Positions 28,761 to 40,683 of a DNA stretch of 64,000 nt are shown in pieces; positions within the stretch are counted from its first letter, which is position 1, and each line of letters begins with the position of its first letter. Position numbers and translations under genes: made by a program. The DNA lies in the NCBI RefSeq assembly GCF_014205135.1, contig NZ_JACHMY010000001.1, forward strand, positions 62,001-126,000. Direction: 5' to 3'. The notes beneath the pieces are model-generated. The model was not told the DNA's origin. It saw only the letters and a program-made list of their open reading frames with translations, and made no database searches. The DNA comes from Kribbella italica. Lineage in GTDB: Bacteria > Actinomycetota > Actinomycetes > Propionibacteriales > Kribbellaceae.

Positions 28761-30152
28761 ATGACGGACGCGACCACCAGTACGCCTCCCCGGGACGTTC
28801 GGGACGTGTACGGCCGCCGGTACCGCATCGGCGAAGACGCAACTGAACTGACCGGGCGCTCCCGCCGGTGGCAGCTGTGGGCAGCCTGGGCCTGCATGGC
28901 GGCGATCAGTCCGCTGCAGTACTCCTTCGGGGCGGCCGCGCTCGGCCTCGACTCGGGCCGGGCCTGGGGCACGGTCCAGACGATGTGGCTGCTGGCCGTC
29001 TTCGTGGCCTTCCAGGCGCTCGTCGCCATCCCCGCCGCCTGGCTCCAGCGCGTACGCCGGGTGACGCCGACCCAGCTCGTCGTCCTCGGTGGGTTCCTGG
29101 CCGCGGCCGGGCTGGTGACGCTCGCGCACGCCGGCAGCTACGTCGGCGCGTTGTTCGGGTACGCCGTCGTCGGCGGCGCCGGAGCCGGGCTCGTCTACTC
29201 CGCGTGCATCACCACGGCGGCGCGGTGGTTCCCCGACCGACGGACGTCGACGATCGGGTTCGTCACCGGCGGGTTCGCCGTCGGCGCGGTGCCGAGCATC
29301 GCGCTGCTCACGATCTTCGAGACCACTGGGGGTCAGCGCTACGTCTTCGACCTGACCGCGGTCGTCGCCCTGCTGATCGTGATGACCGCGGGCGGCCTGC
29401 TCAAGGACCCGCCGCGGCACTGGTGGCCGGCCGACATCGACGCTCAGGCCTGGGCCGTCGACCGCACGCTGAACCGCAGCATCCCGAACAACCTGCCCGC
29501 CGTGCGCTACTACCGTCCGGCCGAGGCGATGAGGACCGGCGCGCTGCCGCTGATGTGGCTGACGCTGGCGATCAGTACGGCGCTGTCGCTGTTCGGCATC
29601 GCGTTCGTGGTCAGCTACGCGACCGAGGCCCAGCTCGGTGTCGCCGTCGCCGGACTGGCCGCCGGACTGCTTGCCGCGGTCAACGGTCTCGGGCGGTCCT
29701 TCGCGGGCACGCTGTCCGACCGGTTCGGACGGCGGCGCGTGCTGGCCGCCGTACTGATGGTCGAGGGCTTCACCCATGTCGGTCTGGTGCTGGCTGGGGA
29801 AGCCGGGGCAGGCGTCGCATTCGTGCTGTGCGCGATGTTCGCCGGACTCGGCGGCGGTGCCTTCTACGCGATCATGGCGAACCTCGTGCTGGAGTTCTTC
29901 GGCGAGAACAGCCTGCTGCAGAACCAGTCGATCCTCTACAGCGCGAAGGCCGTCGGCGGCCTGGTCGGTGTCGGCGTCGCCGCGGGCCTGGTGGCCACGG
30001 TCGGCTACCGCCCCGTCTTCCTCGCGGCCGGCGCGCTCGGGCTGATCACCGCGCTGATCGTCCGCTTCCTGAAGCAACCCGGACGGCCTGCGCTGTCGGT
30101 GAGCTCCCACTTGGGTACGCCGGTAGCCGGCGCGATCAGGCCGGGCGAGTGA
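28761..30152 (+). CDS. MFS transporter, oxalate/formate antiporter (OxlT) type
   Basis: 463-residue carrier with 12 hydrophobic helices and a helical N-terminal extension. Motif features are AGAGLVYSACITTAARWFPDRR in the OxlT region (helix 4-5), YGRRRVLA-like GTLSDRFGRRRVLA between helices, and conserved QYSFGAAALGLDSG in the first helix. In Oxalobacter this family exchanges oxalate for formate; the neighbouring oxalate enzymes support oxalate uptake. GGAGG precedes the ATG. Confidence 0.85.
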   Translation: MTDATTSTPPRDVRDVYGRRYRIGEDATELTGRSRRWQLWAAWACMAAISPLQYSFGAAALGLDSGRAWGTVQTMWLLAVFVAFQALVAIPAAWLQRVRRVTPTQLVVLGGFLAAAGLVTLAHAGSYVGALFGYAVVGGAGAGLVYSACITTAARWFPDRRTSTIGFVTGGFAVGAVPSIALLTIFETTGGQRYVFDLTAVVALLIVMTAGGLLKDPPRHWWPADIDAQAWAVDRTLNRSIPNNLPAVRYYRPAEAMRTGALPLMWLTLAISTALSLFGIAFVVSYATEAQLGVAVAGLAAGLLAAVNGLGRSFAGTLSDRFGRRRVLAAVLMVEGFTHVGLVLAGEAGAGVAFVLCAMFAGLGGGAFYAIMANLVLEFFGENSLLQNQSILYSAKAVGGLVGVGVAAGLVATVGYRPVFLAAGALGLITALIVRFLKQPGRPALSVSSHLGTPVAGAIRPGE

Positions 30153-30996: not shown

Positions 30997-31059
30997 CGCG
31001 GCTCCTTGCTCGACGGGTGCGACCTCTGGACAACGGAAAAACCGTGCGATATGACTACA

Positions 31060-31076
31060 CCATACGGTATGCAATC
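31060..31076. promoter_or_regulatory. Island operator before the Oxc-like operon
   Basis: CCATACGGTATGCAATC repeats the first 14 bases of the site at 28730 exactly. It lies 40 bases before the decarboxylase start, where it would overlap a promoter. Confidence 0.65.
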
Positions 31077-31115
31077 TACGAAGTGTCTGCCTTTCCTGAG
31101 GAGATGACTGCACAG

Positions 31116-32840
31116 ATGGCCCAAACAGTGTCCGAATCGAACGCGGTCGCGAACCCGACCGAGCCGGAGCCGAAGGCCGCCACGATCTCGGGCGGGCACC
31201 TGGTGGCCAAGGCTCTGAAGGCCGAGGGGATCGACGTGATCTTCACCCTCTGCGGCGGTCACATCATCGACATCTACGACGGCTGCGTCGACGAGGGCAT
31301 CGCCGTCGTCGACGTCCGGCACGAGCAGGTCGCCGCACACGCGGCCGACGGCTACGCCCGGATGACCGGCAAGCCGGGGTGCGCCGTGGTGACCGCGGGT
31401 CCTGGTACGACGGACGCCGTCACCGGTGTGGCCAACGCGTTCCGCGCGGAGAGCCCGATGCTGCTGATCGGCGGCCAGGGCGCGCTGAACCAGCACAAGA
31501 TGGGGTCCCTGCAGGACCTGCCGCACGTCGACATGATGACCCCGATCACCAAGTTCGCGGCCACCGTGCCGCACACCGCGCGGGTCGCCGACATGGTGTC
31601 GATGGCCTTCCGCGAGTGCTACAACGGCGCGCCCGGCCCGTCGTTCCTGGAGATCCCGCGCGACATCCTGGACAACTCCGTACCGGTCGACTCCGCGACC
31701 GTGCCGGAGGCCGGCCGCTACCGCGGTTCGACGAAGTCGATCGGTGACCCGGCCGCGGTCGAGGCGCTGGCCGACCTGCTGGCCCGCGCCGAGAAGCCGG
31801 TCGTGCTGCTCGGGACCCAGGTCTGGACGTCGCGCGGCAGCGACGCGGCGATCGAGTTCGTCCGCAAGAACAGCATCCCGGCCTTCATGAACGGCTCGGC
31901 CCGCGGCACCCTGCCGCCGGGCGACCCGCACCACTTCCACCTGTCGCGGCGCTACGGCTTCAACAACGCCGACCTGATCCTGATCGTCGGGACGCCGTTC
32001 GACTTCCGGATGGGCTACGGCCGCCGGCTGCCCAAGGGCGCGACCGTGGTCCAGATCGACATGGACTACCGCACCGTCGGCAAGAACCGCGACATCGACC
32101 TCGGGCTGGTCGGCGACCCGGGCGCGATCCTGGCCGCCGTCACCCAGGCCTCGTCGGGCCGGGTGCAGAAGGCCGGCGACCGCAAGGCCTGGTTCAACGA
32201 GCTGCGGGCCGAGGAGGACGCGGCGTACCAGAAGCGGCTGCCCAAGCAGCTGTCGGACGCCAACCCGATCCACCCGCTGCGGCTGGCCCACGAGATCAAC
32301 GAGTTCCTCACCGAGGACTCGATCTACATCGGCGACGGCGGTGACATCGTCACCTTCTCCGGCGGTGTCGTCCAGCCCAAGTCGCCCGGCCACTGGATGG
32401 ACCCGGGCCCGCTCGGCACCATCGGCGTCGGCATCCCGTTCGTGATGGCGGCCAAGTACGCCCGTCCGGACAAGGAGGTCGTCGCGCTGTTCGGTGACGG
32501 TGCCTTCTCGCTGACCGGCTGGGACTTCGAGACGCTGGTCCGGTTCAAGCTCCCGTTCGTCGGGGTGGTCGGCAACAACTCCTCGATGAACCAGATCCGC
32601 TACGGCCAGGAGGCCAAGTACGGCCACGACCGCGGCCGGATCGGCAACACCCTCGGCGACGTCAAGTACGACGAGTTCGCCAAGATGCTCGGCGGCTACG
32701 GCGAAGAGGTCCGCGACCCCAAGGACATCGGGCCGGCGATGCAGCGGGCCCGCGAGTCGGGGCTGCCGTCACTGATCAACGTGTGGGTCGACCCGGACGC
32801 GTACGCGCCCGGAACGATGAACCAGACCATGTACAAGTAG
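31116..32840 (+). CDS. TPP-dependent decarboxylase, probable oxalyl-CoA decarboxylase
   Basis: 574-residue TPP enzyme. The catalytic glutamate is in VVDVRHEQVAAHAADGYARM; the TPP/Mg site is GDGAFSLTGWDFETLV ending in NN (VVGNNSSMNQ). The start is taken at 31116, 12 bases after GAGGAG; ATG at 31104 directly abuts that site. The family also includes acetolactate synthases and 2-hydroxyacyl-CoA lyases, and this member is distant from the Oxalobacter enzyme. The assignment rests on its operon with a formyl-CoA transferase-like gene and nearby formate dehydrogenase and OxlT-like carrier. It would convert oxalyl-CoA to formyl-CoA and CO2. Confidence 0.75.
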   Translation: MAQTVSESNAVANPTEPEPKAATISGGHLVAKALKAEGIDVIFTLCGGHIIDIYDGCVDEGIAVVDVRHEQVAAHAADGYARMTGKPGCAVVTAGPGTTDAVTGVANAFRAESPMLLIGGQGALNQHKMGSLQDLPHVDMMTPITKFAATVPHTARVADMVSMAFRECYNGAPGPSFLEIPRDILDNSVPVDSATVPEAGRYRGSTKSIGDPAAVEALADLLARAEKPVVLLGTQVWTSRGSDAAIEFVRKNSIPAFMNGSARGTLPPGDPHHFHLSRRYGFNNADLILIVGTPFDFRMGYGRRLPKGATVVQIDMDYRTVGKNRDIDLGLVGDPGAILAAVTQASSGRVQKAGDRKAWFNELRAEEDAAYQKRLPKQLSDANPIHPLRLAHEINEFLTEDSIYIGDGGDIVTFSGGVVQPKSPGHWMDPGPLGTIGVGIPFVMAAKYARPDKEVVALFGDGAFSLTGWDFETLVRFKLPFVGVVGNNSSMNQIRYGQEAKYGHDRGRIGNTLGDVKYDEFAKMLGGYGEEVRDPKDIGPAMQRARESGLPSLINVWVDPDAYAPGTMNQTMYK

Positions 32841-32900
32841 CGATCCCCGGTGTGCGGTCCGTACGCCGTACGGACCGCCACCCAGTACTGGAGGACCACT

Positions 32901-34127
32901 ATGGGTAAGGCCCTTGAAGGTGTTCGCGTACTCGACATGACCCACGTGCAGTCGGGACCGTCCTGCACCCAGATCCTCGCCTGGCTCGGCGCCGACGTGG
33001 TCAAGCTCGAAGCGCCGACCGGTGACATCACCCGCCAGCAGCTGCGCGACCTGCCCGACGTCGACAGCCTCTACTTCACGATGCTCAACTGCAACAAGCG
33101 CAGCATCACCTTGAACATGAAGTCCGAGCGTGGCAAGGAGATCTTCACCGACCTGGTGAAGAACTCCGACGTCCTGGTGGAGAACTTCGCCCCCGGCGCG
33201 ATCGACCGGATGGGCTTCACCTGGGACCGGCTGCAGCTGATCAACCCCGAGCTGATCTTCGCCTCGATCAAGGGCTTCGGCCCCGGCCGGTACGAGGAGT
33301 TCAAGGCCTACGAGGTGGTCGCCCAGGCGATGGGCGGCGCGATGAGCACGACCGGGTTCGAGGACGGCCCGCCGCTGGCCACCGGCGCTCAGATCGGTGA
33401 CTCCGGCACGGGCATCCACCTGGTCGCCGGCATCCTGGCCGCGCTGTACCAGCGGACCGTCACCGGCAAGGGCCAGCGGGTGAGCGTGGCGATGCAGGAG
33501 GCCGTGCTGAACCTCACCCGGGTCAAGCTGCGCGACCAGCAGCGGCTCGCGCACGGCCCGCTGAAGGAGTTCCCGAACGACACCTTCGGCGACGAGGTGC
33601 CGCGCTCGGGCAACGCCTCCGGCGGCGGCCAGCCCGGCTGGGCGGTCAAGACCGCGCCCGGCGGCCCGAACGACTACATCTACGTGATCGTCCAGCCGCC
33701 CGGCTGGGCCCCGATCGCGAGCCTGATCGGCAAGCCCGAGCTGGCCGAGGACCCCGACTGGTCCACGCCCGCGGCCCGGCTCGACAAGCTCGACAAGATG
33801 TTCGCGCTGATCGAGCAGTGGACCGAGCAGCACACCAAGTTCGAGGTGATGGAGAAGCTGAACGCGCTGAACGTGCCGTGCGGCCCGATCCTGTCCACCA
33901 AGGAACTGATCGAGGACGAGACGCTGGCCGAGCTCGGTGCCGTGGTCGAGGTCAAGCACCCGGCCCGGGGCGCGTTCAAGACCGTCGGCTGCCCGATCAA
34001 GCTGTCCGACTCGCCGGTCCAGGTGGAGACCTCACCGGGCCTCGGCGAACACAACTCCGTGATCTACGGCGGCCTCGGCATCGACACCGCCGAGCTGGAA
34101 GAGCTCAAGGCCGCCGGCGTCGTCTGA
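32901..34127 (+). CDS. CaiB/BaiF family CoA-transferase, probable formyl-CoA:oxalate CoA-transferase
   Basis: 408-residue class III CoA-transferase. Opening [34 protein letters not shown] and [16 protein letters not shown] are typical of Frc; the catalytic aspartate is in [21 protein letters not shown] lies before ATG 32901. Second in the operon, 60 bases after the decarboxylase. It moves CoA from formyl-CoA (or succinyl-CoA) to oxalate, making oxalyl-CoA. The donor cannot be decided by eye. Confidence 0.87.
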
Positions 34128-34165: not shown

Positions 34166-36310
34166 ATGACCTATGACAAGGCAGCAGTCCAGTCCATCCT
34201 CGACCAGGCTCTGGCGGAAGGCCGCACCTCGCTGAGCGCACCCGAGGCCAAACTGGTCGCGGACGCGTACGGCATCCCGACCCCGGGAGAGGGCCTGGCC
34301 ACCACTGCCGAGGGCGCCGCGGGCCTCGCGGCCGAGATCGGTTTCCCGGTCGTCCTGAAGATCGTGTCGCCCGACATCCTGCACAAGACCGAGGCGGGCG
34401 GCGTGGTGGTCGGTGTCGACAGCGCCGAGGCGGCCAAGACGGCGTACGACCAGATCGTCGGCAACGCGAAGGCGTACGACGCCAGCGCCTCGATCACCGG
34501 CGTGCAGGTGCAGAAGATGCTGGTCACCGGCGGTGACGTGCAGGAGGTCATCGTCGGCGCGGTCACCGACCAGACGTTCGGCAAGATCGTCGCCTTCGGC
34601 CTGGGCGGTGTCCTGGTCGAGGTGCTCAAGGACGTCACCTTCCGGCTGGCGCCGACCTCGCCGGACGAGGCCCGCTCGATGATCGAGGGGATCGGCGCGC
34701 ACGAGATGCTGAACGGCGTCCGTGGTGCCAAGCCGGTGGACAAGGAGGCGATCGCCCGGATCATCACCAAACTGTCCGACCTGGTCGAGGACTTCCCGCA
34801 GTTCGCCGAGGTGGACCTGAACCCGGTGCTGGCCGGACCGGACGGCGCCACCGCGGTGGACTTCCGGATCATCGTGGACGCCGAGGCCGGCAAGCCGGTG
34901 GAGCGCTACACCCAGGAACAGATCCAGACCGCGATGACCCGGATCATGAAGCCGCGGGCGGTCGCCGTGATCGGCGCCTCGAACGAGGACGGCAAGATCG
35001 GCAACTCGGTGATGAAGAACCTGGTCAACGGCGGCTATCAAGGCGACATCTACCCGGTCAACCCCAAGGGTGGCGAGGTCCTCGGGCTGAAGGCGTTCCC
35101 GAGCATCACCGACATCCCGGGTGACGTCGACGTCGCGGTGTTCGCCGTACCGGCCAAGTTCGTCGGCGGCGCGCTCGAGCAGTGCGGCCAGAAGGGCGTC
35201 GCGGGCGCGATCCTGATCCCGTCCGGGTTCGCCGAGACCGGCGAGCAGGAGCTGCAGGACGAGGTCGTGGCGATCGCCAAGAAGCATGACGTGCGGATCC
35301 TCGGGCCGAACATCTACGGGTACTACTACCTGCCGGAGAACCTCTGCGCGACGTTCTGTACGCCGTACGACGTGAAGGGCAGCGTGGCGCTGTCGTCACA
35401 GAGCGGTGGGATCGGGATGGCGATCCTCGGGTTCAGCCGGTCCAGCCGGATGGGCGTCTCCGCGATCGTTGGGGTAGGCAACAAGGCCGACATCGACGAG
35501 GATGACCTCCTGACGTTCTTCGAGACCGACGACAACACCAACCTGATCGCCATGCACCTGGAAGACCTCAAGGACGGCCGGGCCTTCGCCGAGACCGCGG
35601 CGCGGGTGTCGAAGAAGAAGCCGGTGGTCGTGCTGAAGGCCGGCCGCACCGACATGGGTGCCCGGGCGGCGAGCTCGCACACCGGCGCGCTGGCCGGCAA
35701 CGACAAGGTGTACGACGACATCCTGCGCCAGAGCGGCGTCGTCCGCGCCCCGGGCCTGAACGAGATGCTCCAGTACGCCCGGGGCATCCCGCTGCTGCCG
35801 ACCCCCAAGGGCGAGAACGTCGTCATCATCACCGGCGCCGGCGGCTCGGGCGTCCTGCTGTCGGACGCCTGCGTCGACAACGGCCTGCAGCTGATGGCGA
35901 TGCCCGACGACCTGGACGCCGCGTTCAAGAAGTTCATCCCGCCGTTCGGTGCCTCCGGCAACCCGGTCGACATCACCGGCGGCGAGCCGCCGTCGACGTA
36001 CCGGAACACGGTGGCGCTGGGCCTGCAGGACGACCGGATCCACGCCCTGATCCTGGGCTACTGGCACACCATCGTCACCCCTCCGATGGTGTTCGCGAAG
36101 CTCGTCGCCGAGGTGGTCGAGGAGTACCGGGCCAAGGGCATCGACAAGCCCGTGGTCGCCTCGCTGTCCGGCGACGTCGAGGTCGAGGAGGCCAGCCAGT
36201 ACCTGTTCGAGCACGGCGTGGTCGCCTATCCCTACACCACCGAGACGCCCGTCCAGGTGCTCGGCGCCAAGTACCGGTGGGCCCGCAACGCGGGACCGCT
36301 CGGGTCTTGA
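34166..36310 (+). CDS. ADP-forming acyl-CoA ligase (acetate-CoA ligase family), beta-alpha fusion
   Basis: 714 residues. An N-terminal ATP-grasp (beta) domain (about 1-240, VVLKIVSPDILHKTEAGGVV) is followed by CoA-binding/ligase (alpha) domains (AVAVIGASNEDGKIGNSVMK; SSQSGGIGMA; phosphohistidine in ASSHTGALAGND). This is the reverse of the more common alpha-then-beta order. It follows frc by 39 bases. Possible roles: activating oxalate to oxalyl-CoA, or running backwards on formyl-CoA to yield formate plus ATP. Both are inference; acetate is the default substrate of the family. Confidence 0.85.
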   Translation: MTYDKAAVQSILDQALAEGRTSLSAPEAKLVADAYGIPTPGEGLATTAEGAAGLAAEIGFPVVLKIVSPDILHKTEAGGVVVGVDSAEAAKTAYDQIVGNAKAYDASASITGVQVQKMLVTGGDVQEVIVGAVTDQTFGKIVAFGLGGVLVEVLKDVTFRLAPTSPDEARSMIEGIGAHEMLNGVRGAKPVDKEAIARIITKLSDLVEDFPQFAEVDLNPVLAGPDGATAVDFRIIVDAEAGKPVERYTQEQIQTAMTRIMKPRAVAVIGASNEDGKIGNSVMKNLVNGGYQGDIYPVNPKGGEVLGLKAFPSITDIPGDVDVAVFAVPAKFVGGALEQCGQKGVAGAILIPSGFAETGEQELQDEVVAIAKKHDVRILGPNIYGYYYLPENLCATFCTPYDVKGSVALSSQSGGIGMAILGFSRSSRMGVSAIVGVGNKADIDEDDLLTFFETDDNTNLIAMHLEDLKDGRAFAETAARVSKKKPVVVLKAGRTDMGARAASSHTGALAGNDKVYDDILRQSGVVRAPGLNEMLQYARGIPLLPTPKGENVVIITGAGGSGVLLSDACVDNGLQLMAMPDDLDAAFKKFIPPFGASGNPVDITGGEPPSTYRNTVALGLQDDRIHALILGYWHTIVTPPMVFAKLVAEVVEEYRAKGIDKPVVASLSGDVEVEEASQYLFEHGVVAYPYTTETPVQVLGAKYRWARNAGPLGS

Positions 36311-36419: not shown

Positions 36420-37919
36420 TTGGACGTCACAAGCAAGACCTCAGAAGTACCCGAAGAGCCCGCGGCGGCCGCCGGGACCGAGCGCGTCTGGAAGGCCGGC
36501 CGGCTCGAACCGATGCCGATCCGGCCCCTGCCGCCGGCACCGCCTTCCCTGCACATCCTCGGTCCGACCGTCTTCCTGGTCGCGCTGGGCGTCGGCATGG
36601 GTGAGTCCTACATGTGGCCCCGGCTCGTCCTGGTGTTCGGTCCGGACATCCGGTGGCTGTTCCTGGTCGGTGTCACCCTGCAGGCGTTCGTGCTGCTGGA
36701 GATGGCCCGGTACGCGATGGCGACCGGTGAGTCGATCTTCTTCGGCGCGGCCCGGATCTTCAAACCGATGATGTGGTTCTTCTACGTCGCGGCGATCCTG
36801 ATCTACATGTGGCCCGGCCACCTGTCGGCCGGCGCCTCGGCGTTCGAGGAAGTCAGCGGCATCCCCTGGCAGGCGACAGCCTGTGTGGCGCTGGTCTTCG
36901 TGGGGGTGCTGTTCAGCCTGCTGTCGGTGATCTACAACTTCCTGGAGAAGTTGCTCGGCTTCCTGATCGGCCTGCTGGTGGTCGGGACGTCGGTGATCGC
37001 GGCCATCGTCGGCCAGTGGGGCGACCTGGCCGACACCATCCAGGGCATGTTCGCGTTCGGGTACTTCCCGGACAAGGCCCTGTCGTCGGCGTGGTTCCCG
37101 ATCGTGGTGGGTTCGATCGCCTTCGCCGGCCCGTCCGGCATGCAGCAGATGTGGTACACCCTGCAGCTGCGCGACTCCGGGGCCGGCATGGGCGCGCACA
37201 TCCCGAAGATCCGCGGGCTGCGGTCGTCCGGCGAGGCCGAGGCGATGCCGTCGCGCGGCTTCATGTTCGACACCGAGGACCCCGAGGAGATGAAGAAGTG
37301 GAAGGGGTGGCGCAAGTGGGTCACCTTCGATGCGCTGCTGCTCTTCTGGGGCATCACGATGCTGGTCACGATCTCGTTCACGGTGCTCGCGCTGTCGGCG
37401 GCCCGGGAGAACCCGAACGTGGCCGGCCTGATCGAGGGCGGGGACCGCGAGGCCGCGCTGAAGGCGATGTCCGACGCCTTCGCCTCGGCCGGCAGCCCGT
37501 TCCTGGGCTCGCTGTTCTTCGGCTTCATCGCGCTGATCGGTCTCAACGCGACGCTCGGTCTGTTCGACTCGTTCAGCCGGGGCCAGGCCGACATGACGTA
37601 CTACTTCATCCCCGGGGCCAAGCGGTTCTCGATGTCGAGGATCTACTTCGGGTTCCTGTGGGGCGTCATCGTCTTCGGGATCCTGATCCTGCTGTTCGGT
37701 CCGGCCGACGGACCCGCCGGAATCCTCGACGTCCTGGCGTTCTTGTCCACGTTCGCGATGGGCGCGTACTGCATCGTGTTGCTCCTGGTGAACAACAAGT
37801 TGCTGCCCAAACCGATCCGGCCGGGGCCGCTGCGCAACGTCATCATCGGGTTCGGCGCGGTCTTCTACCTCGGCATGCTGTTCTACAGCCTGATCCGCTT
37901 CGGCGTGGTCCTGGACTGA
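36420..37919 (+). CDS. Nramp-fold membrane transporter lacking the canonical metal motif
   Basis: 499 residues with about 11 hydrophobic helices and a soluble N-terminal tail of 40 residues. TTG start with AAGGAG 5 bases upstream. The first helix reads LGPTVFLVALGVGMGESYMW where metal-ion Nramps have the DPGN turn, and helix 6 reads GPSGMQQMWYTLQLRDSG instead of MPHNL. The overall pattern GP-x3-LVA and MARYAMATGES follow Nramp order. Metal-binding residues are therefore replaced. As fourth gene of the oxalate operon it may carry an organic acid or Mg/Mn; unknown. Confidence 0.7.
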   Translation: MDVTSKTSEVPEEPAAAAGTERVWKAGRLEPMPIRPLPPAPPSLHILGPTVFLVALGVGMGESYMWPRLVLVFGPDIRWLFLVGVTLQAFVLLEMARYAMATGESIFFGAARIFKPMMWFFYVAAILIYMWPGHLSAGASAFEEVSGIPWQATACVALVFVGVLFSLLSVIYNFLEKLLGFLIGLLVVGTSVIAAIVGQWGDLADTIQGMFAFGYFPDKALSSAWFPIVVGSIAFAGPSGMQQMWYTLQLRDSGAGMGAHIPKIRGLRSSGEAEAMPSRGFMFDTEDPEEMKKWKGWRKWVTFDALLLFWGITMLVTISFTVLALSAARENPNVAGLIEGGDREAALKAMSDAFASAGSPFLGSLFFGFIALIGLNATLGLFDSFSRGQADMTYYFIPGAKRFSMSRIYFGFLWGVIVFGILILLFGPADGPAGILDVLAFLSTFAMGAYCIVLLLVNNKLLPKPIRPGPLRNVIIGFGAVFYLGMLFYSLIRFGVVLD

Positions 37920-37920
37920 C

Positions 37921-38469
37921 ATGACCACCGAGACGAAGATCCACCAACTCGTGGAGTTCACGCTCCCGGCCTCCGTGGTCGGGATCTCGGCCGGCCTGAT
38001 CGCCGCGCTGCTGGGCGGCTTCGCCGGCCAGCCGCTCGGCTGGGCCGCGATCACCGGACTCGGCCTGGCGGTGCCGCTCGTCGTCCTCGGCATCGGGTAC
38101 TCGGCCCTGGTCGGTCTCGGCAAGGCGCCGGCCGGGGTGTTCGCCCCGGCCGCCGCCTACTGGGCGATCGGGTTCCCGCTGGCGATGCTGGTGCACGCGA
38201 TCACCACCGAGTGGGCGGTCACCGGTACGCCGGGACTGCCCGACCAGCCGCTGCAGTTCCTGGCCTTCCGGGCGCTGCTCAGCATGGGGTTCGCGATCGG
38301 GTTCCTCTGGATGCACGAGCAGGTCGGCCGGCACTGGTGGCCCCGCATCATGGAGCACAACGTGTACGCCCAGCACACGGTGGAGCAGTACGTCCACCTG
38401 GCCGAGTCCATGGAGGCCCGCAAGCAGGCCGCCGCCCGGAACCGGAAGAAGCGGAAGGCGCACGTCTGA
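37921..38469 (+). CDS. Small four-helix membrane protein, probable partner of the Nramp-like transporter
   Basis: 182 residues. Four hydrophobic helices (about 14-36, 39-62, 70-90, 112-130) precede a basic C-terminal tail rich in Lys/Arg (ARNRKKRKAHV). It starts one base after the transporter stop with little independent ribosome site, indicating coupled translation. No family recognised. Tight coupling suggests an accessory subunit. Confidence 0.7.
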   Translation: MTTETKIHQLVEFTLPASVVGISAGLIAALLGGFAGQPLGWAAITGLGLAVPLVVLGIGYSALVGLGKAPAGVFAPAAAYWAIGFPLAMLVHAITTEWAVTGTPGLPDQPLQFLAFRALLSMGFAIGFLWMHEQVGRHWWPRIMEHNVYAQHTVEQYVHLAESMEARKQAAARNRKKRKAHV

Positions 38470-38598: not shown

Positions 38599-39581
38599 AT
38601 GAACGTTTCGCTGTCGGCGTGGATCATCACCATCGCCGCCCTGCTGGCCCTGCTGGTGCTGGACTTCCTGATCGTGGCCAGGAAGCCGCACGAACCGTCC
38701 CTGCGCGAGGCGACCCTGTGGGTGTCCTTCTACGTCGGCATCGCGCTGCTGTTCGGCGTCGGCCTGACGGTCGCCGCCGGCGGTGAGTCCGGTGGGGAGT
38801 TCTTCGCCGGCTGGCTGACCGAGTACTCGCTGTCGGTCGACAACCTGTTCGTGTTCATCATCATCATGGGCAAGTTCGCCGTGCCCCGGCAGTACCAGCA
38901 GAAGGTGCTGCTGGTCGGGGTCGCGCTGGCGCTGGTGATGCGCGGGATCTTCATCGCCGTCGGGGCGGAGGCGATCTCGCACTTCAACTGGGTGTTCTAC
39001 ATCTTCGGCGCGTTCCTGCTCTACACCGCGTGGAAGCTGGCGACGTCGCACGACGACGAGGACGAGTTCAAGGAGAACGTCGTGCTCGCGAAGGTGCGCA
39101 AGGTGGTGCCGACCACCGAGACGTACCACGAGGCGAAGCTGACCACCCGGATCGACGGCAAGCGGTTCGCGACGCCGATGCTGATCGTGATGATCGCGAT
39201 CGGGACCACGGACCTGCTGTTCGCGCTGGACTCGATCCCGGCGATCTTCGGGCTCACGCAGGAGCCGTATCTGGTGTTCACCGCCAACGCCTTTGCCCTG
39301 ATGGGGTGTTGCGGCAGCTGTTCTTCCTGATCGGCGGGCTGCTGGATCGGCTGGTCTACCTGTCGTACGGGCTGTCGGTGGTGCTCGGGTTCATCGGCGT
39401 GAAGCTGATCCTGGAGGCGCTGCACCACAGCGGCGTGAAGTGGGCGCCGGAGATCCCGATCGTGGTGTCGCTGTCGATCATCCTCGGCACGCTGGTGGTC
39501 ACGGCGGTGCTGAGTCTTGTGAAGTCGTCGCGGGACGAGAAGGCGAAGGCCAGAGAAGAAGAGGTTGCCGGAGTCGAGTGA
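38599..39581 (+). pseudogene. TerC family membrane protein with a frameshift
   Basis: ATG 38599 with GGAGGA. Helices 1-6 read normally (NVSLSAWIITIAALLALLVL; TEYSLSVDNLFVFIIIMGKF with the conserved aspartate; TTDLLFALDSIPAIFG). At about 39305 the expected FALMG-LRQLFFLIGGLLDR is broken: the frame changes, and LFFLIGGLLDRLVYLSYGLS continues to 39581 in another frame. Two extra bases or one missing G in the GGGG run would explain it. TerC proteins are linked to metal (Mn) homeostasis; here it is downstream of the Nramp-like gene. Confidence 0.85.
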
Positions 39582-39684: not shown

Positions 39685-40443
39685 TCAGTCGGTGGTGCGG
39701 CGGCGTCTGGTGGCCGGCTTCTTCTCCGGGGCCGGGGTTGCGGGAGCTTGGCCGGACTGGAGCTCGTGATACGCCGTACGGGTGTGTTCGGTGTGCTCGC
39801 GCATGATCTGGGCGGCCTTGTCCTCGTCGGCCTCGCTGATCGCCTTGACCAGGCGGGCGTGCTCGCGCCAGGAGGCGGCGCCGCGGACGGGGGCGACGGG
39901 GGTGTAGTACCAGCGGACGCGGCGATCGACCTGGCCGGCGAAGTCGACCAGGAAACGGTTGCCGGACATCGCGGTGATCATCGCGTGCAGCTCGCCGTTG
40001 GTGCGCACCGCGCCGTCGATGTCACCGGACTCCTGGAACGCCGTGCCGACCTTGCAGAGCTCCTTGAGCTGCGCGACCGCCTCCTTGGTGGCGTGCCGGG
40101 CCGCGAGCCGCGCGGACTCCGACTCCAGCGCGGCCCGCGCCGCCAGGAGCTGGTCGACCTCGTCCTCGGCCGGGACATGGACCATCGCGCCGAAGCCGGG
40201 GCGCAGGTCCACCCAGCCCTCGTTGTTGAGCCGCTGGAGGGCCTCACGGACGGGCTGGCGGGAGACGCCGAGCATGCCGGCCAGCTCGACCTCGACCAGG
40301 TGCCGGCCGCGCTCCAGCGTGCCGTCGATGATCATCTCGGTGAGGGCCTCGTAGACCGACTCGCGCAGCGGTGTCGGCCGCTTGACGTGCCGAACGCCGG
40401 GGGAGTCGGCGGAGGAATCCGGGCCCGCGCTGATGGTGGTCAT
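39685..40443 (-). CDS. GntR family regulator, FadR subfamily (FCD domain)
   Basis: 252 residues. N-terminal winged helix (LVEVELAGMLGVSRQPVREA; wing GWVDLRPGFGAMV), then an all-helical FCD ligand domain with metal/ligand histidines in GELHAMITAMSGN, WREHARLVKAI and MREHTEHT. The C-terminal tail is basic (KKPATRRRRTTD). ATG 40443 is chosen. A 29-base perfect palindrome lies 24 bases upstream, implying autoregulation. It is the prime candidate for controlling the oxalate island through sites of similar geometry. Confidence 0.9.
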   Translation of the reverse strand: MTTISAGPDSSADSPGVRHVKRPTPLRESVYEALTEMIIDGTLERGRHLVEVELAGMLGVSRQPVREALQRLNNEGWVDLRPGFGAMVHVPAEDEVDQLLAARAALESESARLAARHATKEAVAQLKELCKVGTAFQESGDIDGAVRTNGELHAMITAMSGNRFLVDFAGQVDRRVRWYYTPVAPVRGAASWREHARLVKAISEADEDKAAQIMREHTEHTRTAYHELQSGQAPATPAPEKKPATRRRRTTD

Positions 40444-40467
40444 GAGGTCCTTCCCGAACAACGTGAT

Positions 40468-40496
40468 GGCACTTGGTAGACAGTCTACCAAGTGCC
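40468..40496. promoter_or_regulatory. Perfect 29-base palindromic operator of the GntR gene
   Basis: GGCACTTGGTAGAC-A-GTCTACCAAGTGCC: 14-base arms around a single base, with no mismatch. The core GTAGAC-A-GTCTAC has the GTAnnC-n-GnnTAC layout used by FadR-type repressors. Located 24 bases before the gntR ATG. Confidence 0.8.
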
Positions 40497-40683
40497 AGGT
40501 CTGTTGCCACGCTCTTCGTTGAGCTAGCGGATTTTCTTGTGGTGGAGCCTGACGGTTCCCGTCCTGCTCCCGGTGCTCCGGATCCATGGATCGTGTCCCG
40601 CGGGGAGTCCGCCGCCGCGGTCCGGATCCAGGTGCCGGCGGGTGCCGGTCATCCGTGCCCGGAGCACCGATTCGGGGTGTGGG

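Follow-up and report, generated by a model that had tools for sequence, protein, structure and literature searches.

An Nramp-related membrane protein (NRL) and the small membrane protein encoded immediately behind it (SMP) in an oxalate operon of Kribbella italica probably form a two-component oxalate importer built on an Nramp scaffold, a reading that includes import of oxalate as a metal complex. The fold of NRL, the loss of its metal-site motifs, the gene pairing, the linkage to two oxalate pathways and, at one locus, an OxlT-type carrier in the pair's place were each established by computation. What appears to be new is the use for oxalate, the partner protein and the exchange with an OxlT-type carrier, whereas Nramp-related proteins that lack the motifs are already known; our literature search found no paper linking Nramp proteins with oxalate transport. 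Both genes lie in the window, the whole stretch of 64,000 nucleotides analysed here, which contains the following features:

28761..30152, + strand: OFA-family (OxlT-like) MFS carrier, upstream of the operon (TIGR00890, 137 bits, below the cut-off of 375)
31017..32840, + strand: TPP-dependent enzyme of the oxalyl-CoA decarboxylase (OXC)/2-hydroxyacyl-CoA lyase superfamily, probable OXC
32850..34127, + strand: formyl-CoA:oxalate CoA-transferase, frc (TIGR03253, 655 bits, cut-off 504)
34166..36310, + strand: ADP-forming acyl-CoA ligase, acetate--CoA ligase type (family searches)
36420..37919, + strand: NRL, Nramp-related membrane protein of 499 aa with a predicted Nramp/LeuT fold (NCBIfam NF037982 and VIA Z)
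36594..36605, + strand: G59-M60-G61-E62 of NRL, at the position of the helix-1 DPGN of metal-transporting Nramps (family alignment)
36819..36821, + strand: His134 of NRL, at the position of the conserved helix-3 glutamate (alignment)
37125..37142, + strand: A236-G237-P238-S239-G240-M241, unwound part of helix 6 in NRL (model and alignment)
37921..38469, + strand: SMP, membrane protein of 182 aa with four predicted transmembrane helices and a long C-terminal helix
38599..39330, + strand: TerC/Alx-family metal-transport protein, first part (TIGR03718, 306 bits)
39685..40587, − strand: GntR/FCD regulator

A preliminary description of this DNA had placed the gene in an oxalate operon, with a four-helix protein starting one base after its stop, and both statements held. 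NRL, whose TTG start codon follows an AGGAG at a distance of a few bases, lies downstream of frc (above cut-off), an OXC-superfamily TPP enzyme and an acyl-CoA ligase; the ATG of SMP follows the TGA of NRL by one base, and SMP is probably carried on the same transcript. The TPP enzyme reaches 234 bits on the OXC model, against a cut-off of 739, and models for acetolactate synthase and 2-hydroxyacyl-CoA lyase score it higher; OXC seems to be under-annotated in actinobacteria. Behind the pair, the TerC/Alx gene is frameshifted near 39305, with homology continuing in another frame to about 39581, and reflects either recent pseudogene formation or an error in the sequence; its relative in Kribbella sp. 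ALI-6-A (L032) has an intact frame. A GntR gene recurs near NRL clusters.

On the NCBIfam model NF037982, named ‘Nramp family divalent metal transporter’, NRL scores 470 bits (cut-off 50). A Pfam search returned only scattered weak matches and no family, PF01566 included, and neither the sequence nor a profile matched PDB sequences. A structural model built from 49 orthologs, of moderate confidence overall (pLDDT 74, pTM 0.77) and low confidence around the helix-1 break, has an Nramp (LeuT-type) fold in which helices 1 and 6 are unwound at residues 55–59 and 235–239, as in LeuT and Nramp. All top structural matches belong to the Nramp family, and nearly all transport metals (VIA-align Z of 34.5 for BfraNramp, 33.0 for EleNRMT, 32.2 for a YcsG model and about 32 for DraNramp), and the best amino-acid carriers fall below them at a Z of about 25.

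Within this scaffold the metal-site motifs are replaced, as the preliminary description had claimed for DPGN in helix 1 and MPHN in helix 6. With the genome's own MntH as reference, the family alignment sets the D-P-G-N column against G59-M60-G61-E62 and the helix-6 MPH segment against P-S-G-M of NRL; helix 6 reads AGPSGMQQ, and the segment A236–M241 does not vary among 56 sequences from two classes. No helix-1 aspartate and no helix-6 Met/His appeared in the alignment, and a metal site at shifted positions did not emerge. Across the same 56 sequences G59, G61, E62, R68 and H134 are invariant and M60 varies to Leu. E62 is common to NRL and its nearest paralog group; R68, H134, S239 and Q243 are NRL-specific, the closest paralogs having Trp in place of His134. 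Because NRL has neither the helix-1 Asp nor the helix-3 Glu, the known metal site has, as far as the alignment goes, not simply moved to other positions, though one acid is kept: E62 is an invariant glutamate at the position of the metal-binding Asn of canonical Nramps and could bind a cation. The earlier phrase ‘without metal ligands’ is therefore slightly too strong.

By alignment and predicted fold, NRL belongs with the Nramp-related proteins and is neither a canonical Nramp nor an NRMT. The helix-1 aspartate is described as universal in SLC11 (PMC8806188), and NRL has none of the DPGN, MPH and helix-3 glutamate of canonical SLC11/Nramp proteins. NRMTs move Mg2+ through an altered site with the binding-site motif DxxG-TxxA/T (PMC8806188), whereas helix 1 of NRL reads GxxE. 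EleNRMT and canonical MntH/Nramp proteins share the fold of NRL (VIA Z 32–34) but keep the helix-1 Asp and helix-3 Glu, in place of which NRL has Gly59 and His134. Nramp-related proteins without both motifs form a large paraphyletic group that is described as almost entirely uncharacterised (PMC12873925), and NRL falls among them by its fold, which comes with neither the helix-1/6 metal motif nor the helix-3 proton-pathway acids, and by the curated model NF037982, whose group shares with NRL the Nramp fold, a G-rich helix-1 motif and the lack of a canonical metal site. It differs from other Nramp-related proteins in its R68/H134 signature, its linkage to oxalate enzymes and SMP, and its own clade, which has 100/100 support and stands apart from canonical and PxpT sequences in a tree where several branches are long and the exact sister group is unsure. 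A further Nramp-related group carries GSGEW in helix 1 and shares the RDKGYGMG loop (L152:6224-7705, L151:763-2241).

Growth on 5-oxoproline depends on the Nramp-family protein PxpT (PMC13274462), a precedent that supports the oxalate reading. PxpT and its B. subtilis homolog YcsG resemble NRL in being Nramp-family proteins without DPGN that are encoded with an organic-acid catabolic enzyme (5-oxoprolinase), and differ from it in their separate branch, GPGF-type motif, lack of SMP and other substrate; the neighbours of NRL are oxalate genes rather than pxpABC. The genome that holds the window contains an Nramp-family pxpT followed by pxpABC in a complete operon (L157:6833-10388). In this genome, too, a GxGE paralog of NRL with 31% identity adjoins an SMP-30/gluconolactonase gene (L001/L005; L005:8345-10725), hinting at another organic-acid substrate.

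The partner protein is recognizable chiefly by its position. Although the predicted model of SMP reaches a pLDDT of 96.8, Pfam and curated family models gave no family match beyond scattered weak Pfam matches, and its sequence had no relative in the PDB. The fold matches recovered (best Foldseek E 0.75, best VIA Z 7.0) were rejected as a common helical arrangement. We examined 80 orthologous NRL loci from actinobacterial genomes, mainly Kribbella, Lentzea, Nonomuraea, Planotetraspora and Saccharopolyspora; as a best-match set they are close relatives (74–97% identity). SMP lies directly downstream of NRL in 80/80, and in 73 of these the two genes are −1 to +3 bp apart; we noticed no natural fusion in these loci, a stop separating the genes in all. 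In an even sample of 148 genomes from the window's class, searched for NRL, SMP and frc, SMP occurs in the same five genomes as NRL and always beside it, plus one 26-residue match elsewhere, and it is present in 7/7 NRL genomes of a second class. So strict a pairing, with such constant spacing, argues for a two-part transporter, the arrangement that the preliminary description had suggested. SSS-family carboxylate symporters (such as ActP-YjcH) likewise combine a LeuT-fold carrier with a small membrane protein and have an acyl-CoA synthetase adjacent, a likeness in gene arrangement; they are a different family, and SMP has no Pfam match to such subunits. That SMP is instead an independent chaperone or regulator, merely co-transcribed, is a reading we hold to be possible and distinctly the less probable. 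It draws on the lack of a fold match and on faster sequence change (mean column identity 43%, against 83% for NRL), and has against it the universal adjacency with coupled spacing, the retention in the second class and, in the 148-genome sample, the near-absence of SMP from genomes without NRL.

NRL–SMP is closely linked to oxalate catabolism. In 79/80 orthologous loci frc and the acyl-CoA ligase lie directly upstream of the pair, the ligase being conserved between frc and NRL; conservation of the pair next to frc was a check named in the preliminary description. The pair does not occur mainly away from oxalate genes. The only locus without oxalate neighbours is in Kibdelosporangium persicum (L099:10001-11892), where NRL–SMP stands beside glycerol-utilisation-like genes with no oxalate genes within 10 kb. 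Among the 148 genomes NRL occurs in five and frc above cut-off in 11, that is, in 5/5 NRL genomes and 6/143 others (Fisher 8e-7, uncorrected for relatedness). Whole-genome searches also found an OFA MFS carrier in all 11 frc-type NRL genomes tested, as in the window; in frc lineages, therefore, NRL is an addition to the OxlT-type MFS and not a simple substitute. In a few Lentzea, positions compared by hand place the OFA MFS about 15–22 kb from NRL. A supposed absence of such carriers from Lentzea was dropped as evidence once they were found in 11/11 genomes checked. A different frc/TPP-enzyme locus (L196:3302-8298) has an AEC-type permease-like gene with 10 predicted helices, suggesting, from a look at the sequence, that one more family may fill the place of the oxalate transporter.

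A second oxalate pathway accompanies the pair outside this class. In a wider sample of the phylum NRL was found at 65–68% identity in seven genomes of one family in another class (f50), where frc is absent and NRL–SMP is preceded by a three-gene oxalate oxidoreductase (OOR) set, except at one locus (L191) whose contig ends before the set. The alpha subunit matches Moorella oxalate oxidoreductase (1e-104) better than pyruvate:ferredoxin oxidoreductase (PFOR; 1e-62), as does the beta subunit (9e-91 and 1e-57); the alpha subunit carries YPIRP like OOR, in contrast to the YPITP of PFOR, and the neighbouring enzyme (L185–L190) thus groups with OOR by motif and by score. NCBIfam OOR models rank first for the set, with scores below their equivalog cut-offs. 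The OOR alpha subunit occurs in 8/39 genomes of this second class, and NRL in seven of those eight and 0/31 of the OOR-less genomes (Fisher 5e-7, uncorrected for relatedness). OOR converts oxalate to CO2 and releases no formate, and the compound common to the frc and OOR settings is therefore oxalate.

The slot taken by NRL–SMP can also hold a known type of oxalate carrier. Six of the seven NRL+OOR genomes gave no OFA MFS match, and the seventh has one remote 29% match with an internal stop. The eighth OOR genome (G227), without NRL, encodes an OFA MFS directly behind OOR (TIGR00890, 202 bits). Comparison with its sister genome G247 shows that the DNA on both sides of the slot is 95–98% identical, and that between these matching flanks NRL–SMP–yjbE–yjbE (L187) in G247 faces a single OFA MFS gene (L204) in G227; both yjbE copies are gone together with NRL–SMP, and the 3′ end of yjbE is left as a scar beside the MFS gene. 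Streptomyces-type genomes (group g21, genus inferred) have one or two OFA MFS genes behind the oxc-frc-ligase operon, 121–271 bp after the ligase, in the slot that NRL–SMP takes elsewhere (L179 without a called oxc). OxlT/OFA carriers would have the same role as NRL–SMP in the same operon position, and differ in their MFS fold, their single protein and the lack of a TerC neighbour in the sampled loci; NRL itself has an Nramp/APC fold and no MFS family match. The case for oxalate import by NRL–SMP draws on the linkage to both frc and OOR, the replacement by an OxlT-type carrier, the OFA MFS genes in the matching slot of Streptomyces-type operons, the constant pairing and the PxpT precedent.

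Other substrates have to be weighed against free oxalate. It is unlikely, in our estimate, that the pair imports Mg2+ or Mn2+ to supply TPP/Mg2+-dependent oxalate enzymes or to offset chelation by oxalate, with TerC exporting any surplus. The Nramp fold and the top structural matches, all from the Nramp family, would fit such a function, as would the adjoining TerC-family genes, Mg2+ transport by NRMTs through an altered site (PMC8806188) and the reported Mn2+ import by YcsG/MntG, which has no DPGN (PMC10448178). Yet the helix-1 Asp and helix-3 Glu are both gone, the genome that carries NRL has a canonical MntH with DPGN/MPH (L003/L006), and an OxlT-type carrier taking over at an OOR locus, with the metal-type genes lost too, would be unexpected for a metal importer. 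An Rfam search of the window region and six relatives found no riboswitch, Mn type included, the sole RNA being one tRNA. Still less credible is export of formate or an oxalate:formate exchange. The frc/oxc route does yield formate, and OxlT is an oxalate:formate exchanger, but the pair is equally tied to OOR, and given that link we judged formate transport to be very improbable.

Import of oxalate together with a divalent metal, as a Ca, Mg or Mn oxalate complex whose metal TerC-family proteins would expel, is a variant of the oxalate-import reading rather than a competitor; its probability overlaps with that of the whole, of which it takes perhaps a third, and by itself we regard it as tentative. 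TerC genes of two subfamilies accompany the pair, of the Alx type in 59/79 loci and of the YjbE type in 5/7 OOR-lineage loci, and none was found in the nine NRL-less oxalate loci sampled, that of G227 among them. Their presence beside NRL–SMP and absence from the MFS versions hint at a metal, as does the joint loss of both yjbE copies with NRL–SMP; E62 stays acidic, and Mg- or Ca-citrate carriers offer a parallel for citrate. On the other side, 13 Kribbella loci and seven others have no TerC directly downstream, the window copy is frameshifted, and TerC proteins may instead serve exoenzyme metalation or Mn stress (PMC10550928). The earlier suggestion that the substrate may not be a metal thus gains from the motif loss and the oxalate linkage, and is weakened in so far as a cation at E62 or TerC-linked metal co-transport is possible.

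For oxalate import by NRL–SMP we infer the substrate, its movement into the cell, a part for E62 in cation or proton handling, the ligand residues, SMP as a subunit, and the coupling and stoichiometry of the pair. NRL would be the carrier, its central site having shed the metal ligands Asp, Met and His as well as the helix-3 Glu, and the clade-specific R68, H134, S239 and Q243 would be among the residues that could bind a dicarboxylate; SMP would be its obligate partner subunit. Imported oxalate would pass to FRC, OXC and the ligase in most actinobacteria and to oxalate oxidoreductase in the second actinobacterial class.

Databases label NRL an ‘Nramp family divalent metal transporter’, and the evidence points to another substrate. 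If this is right, the pair is an oxalate uptake system unrelated to OxlT, one clade of an almost entirely uncharacterised Nramp-related group gains a function, and the Nramp scaffold has been put to use for an organic anion, together with a partner subunit. Metal–oxalate import, if true, would link the transport of metal ions and of organic acids in evolution and give bacteria a direct route to metal oxalates such as calcium oxalate. If oxalate import is right, NRL–SMP is also a target for study in the soil oxalotrophs that drive the oxalate–carbonate pathway.
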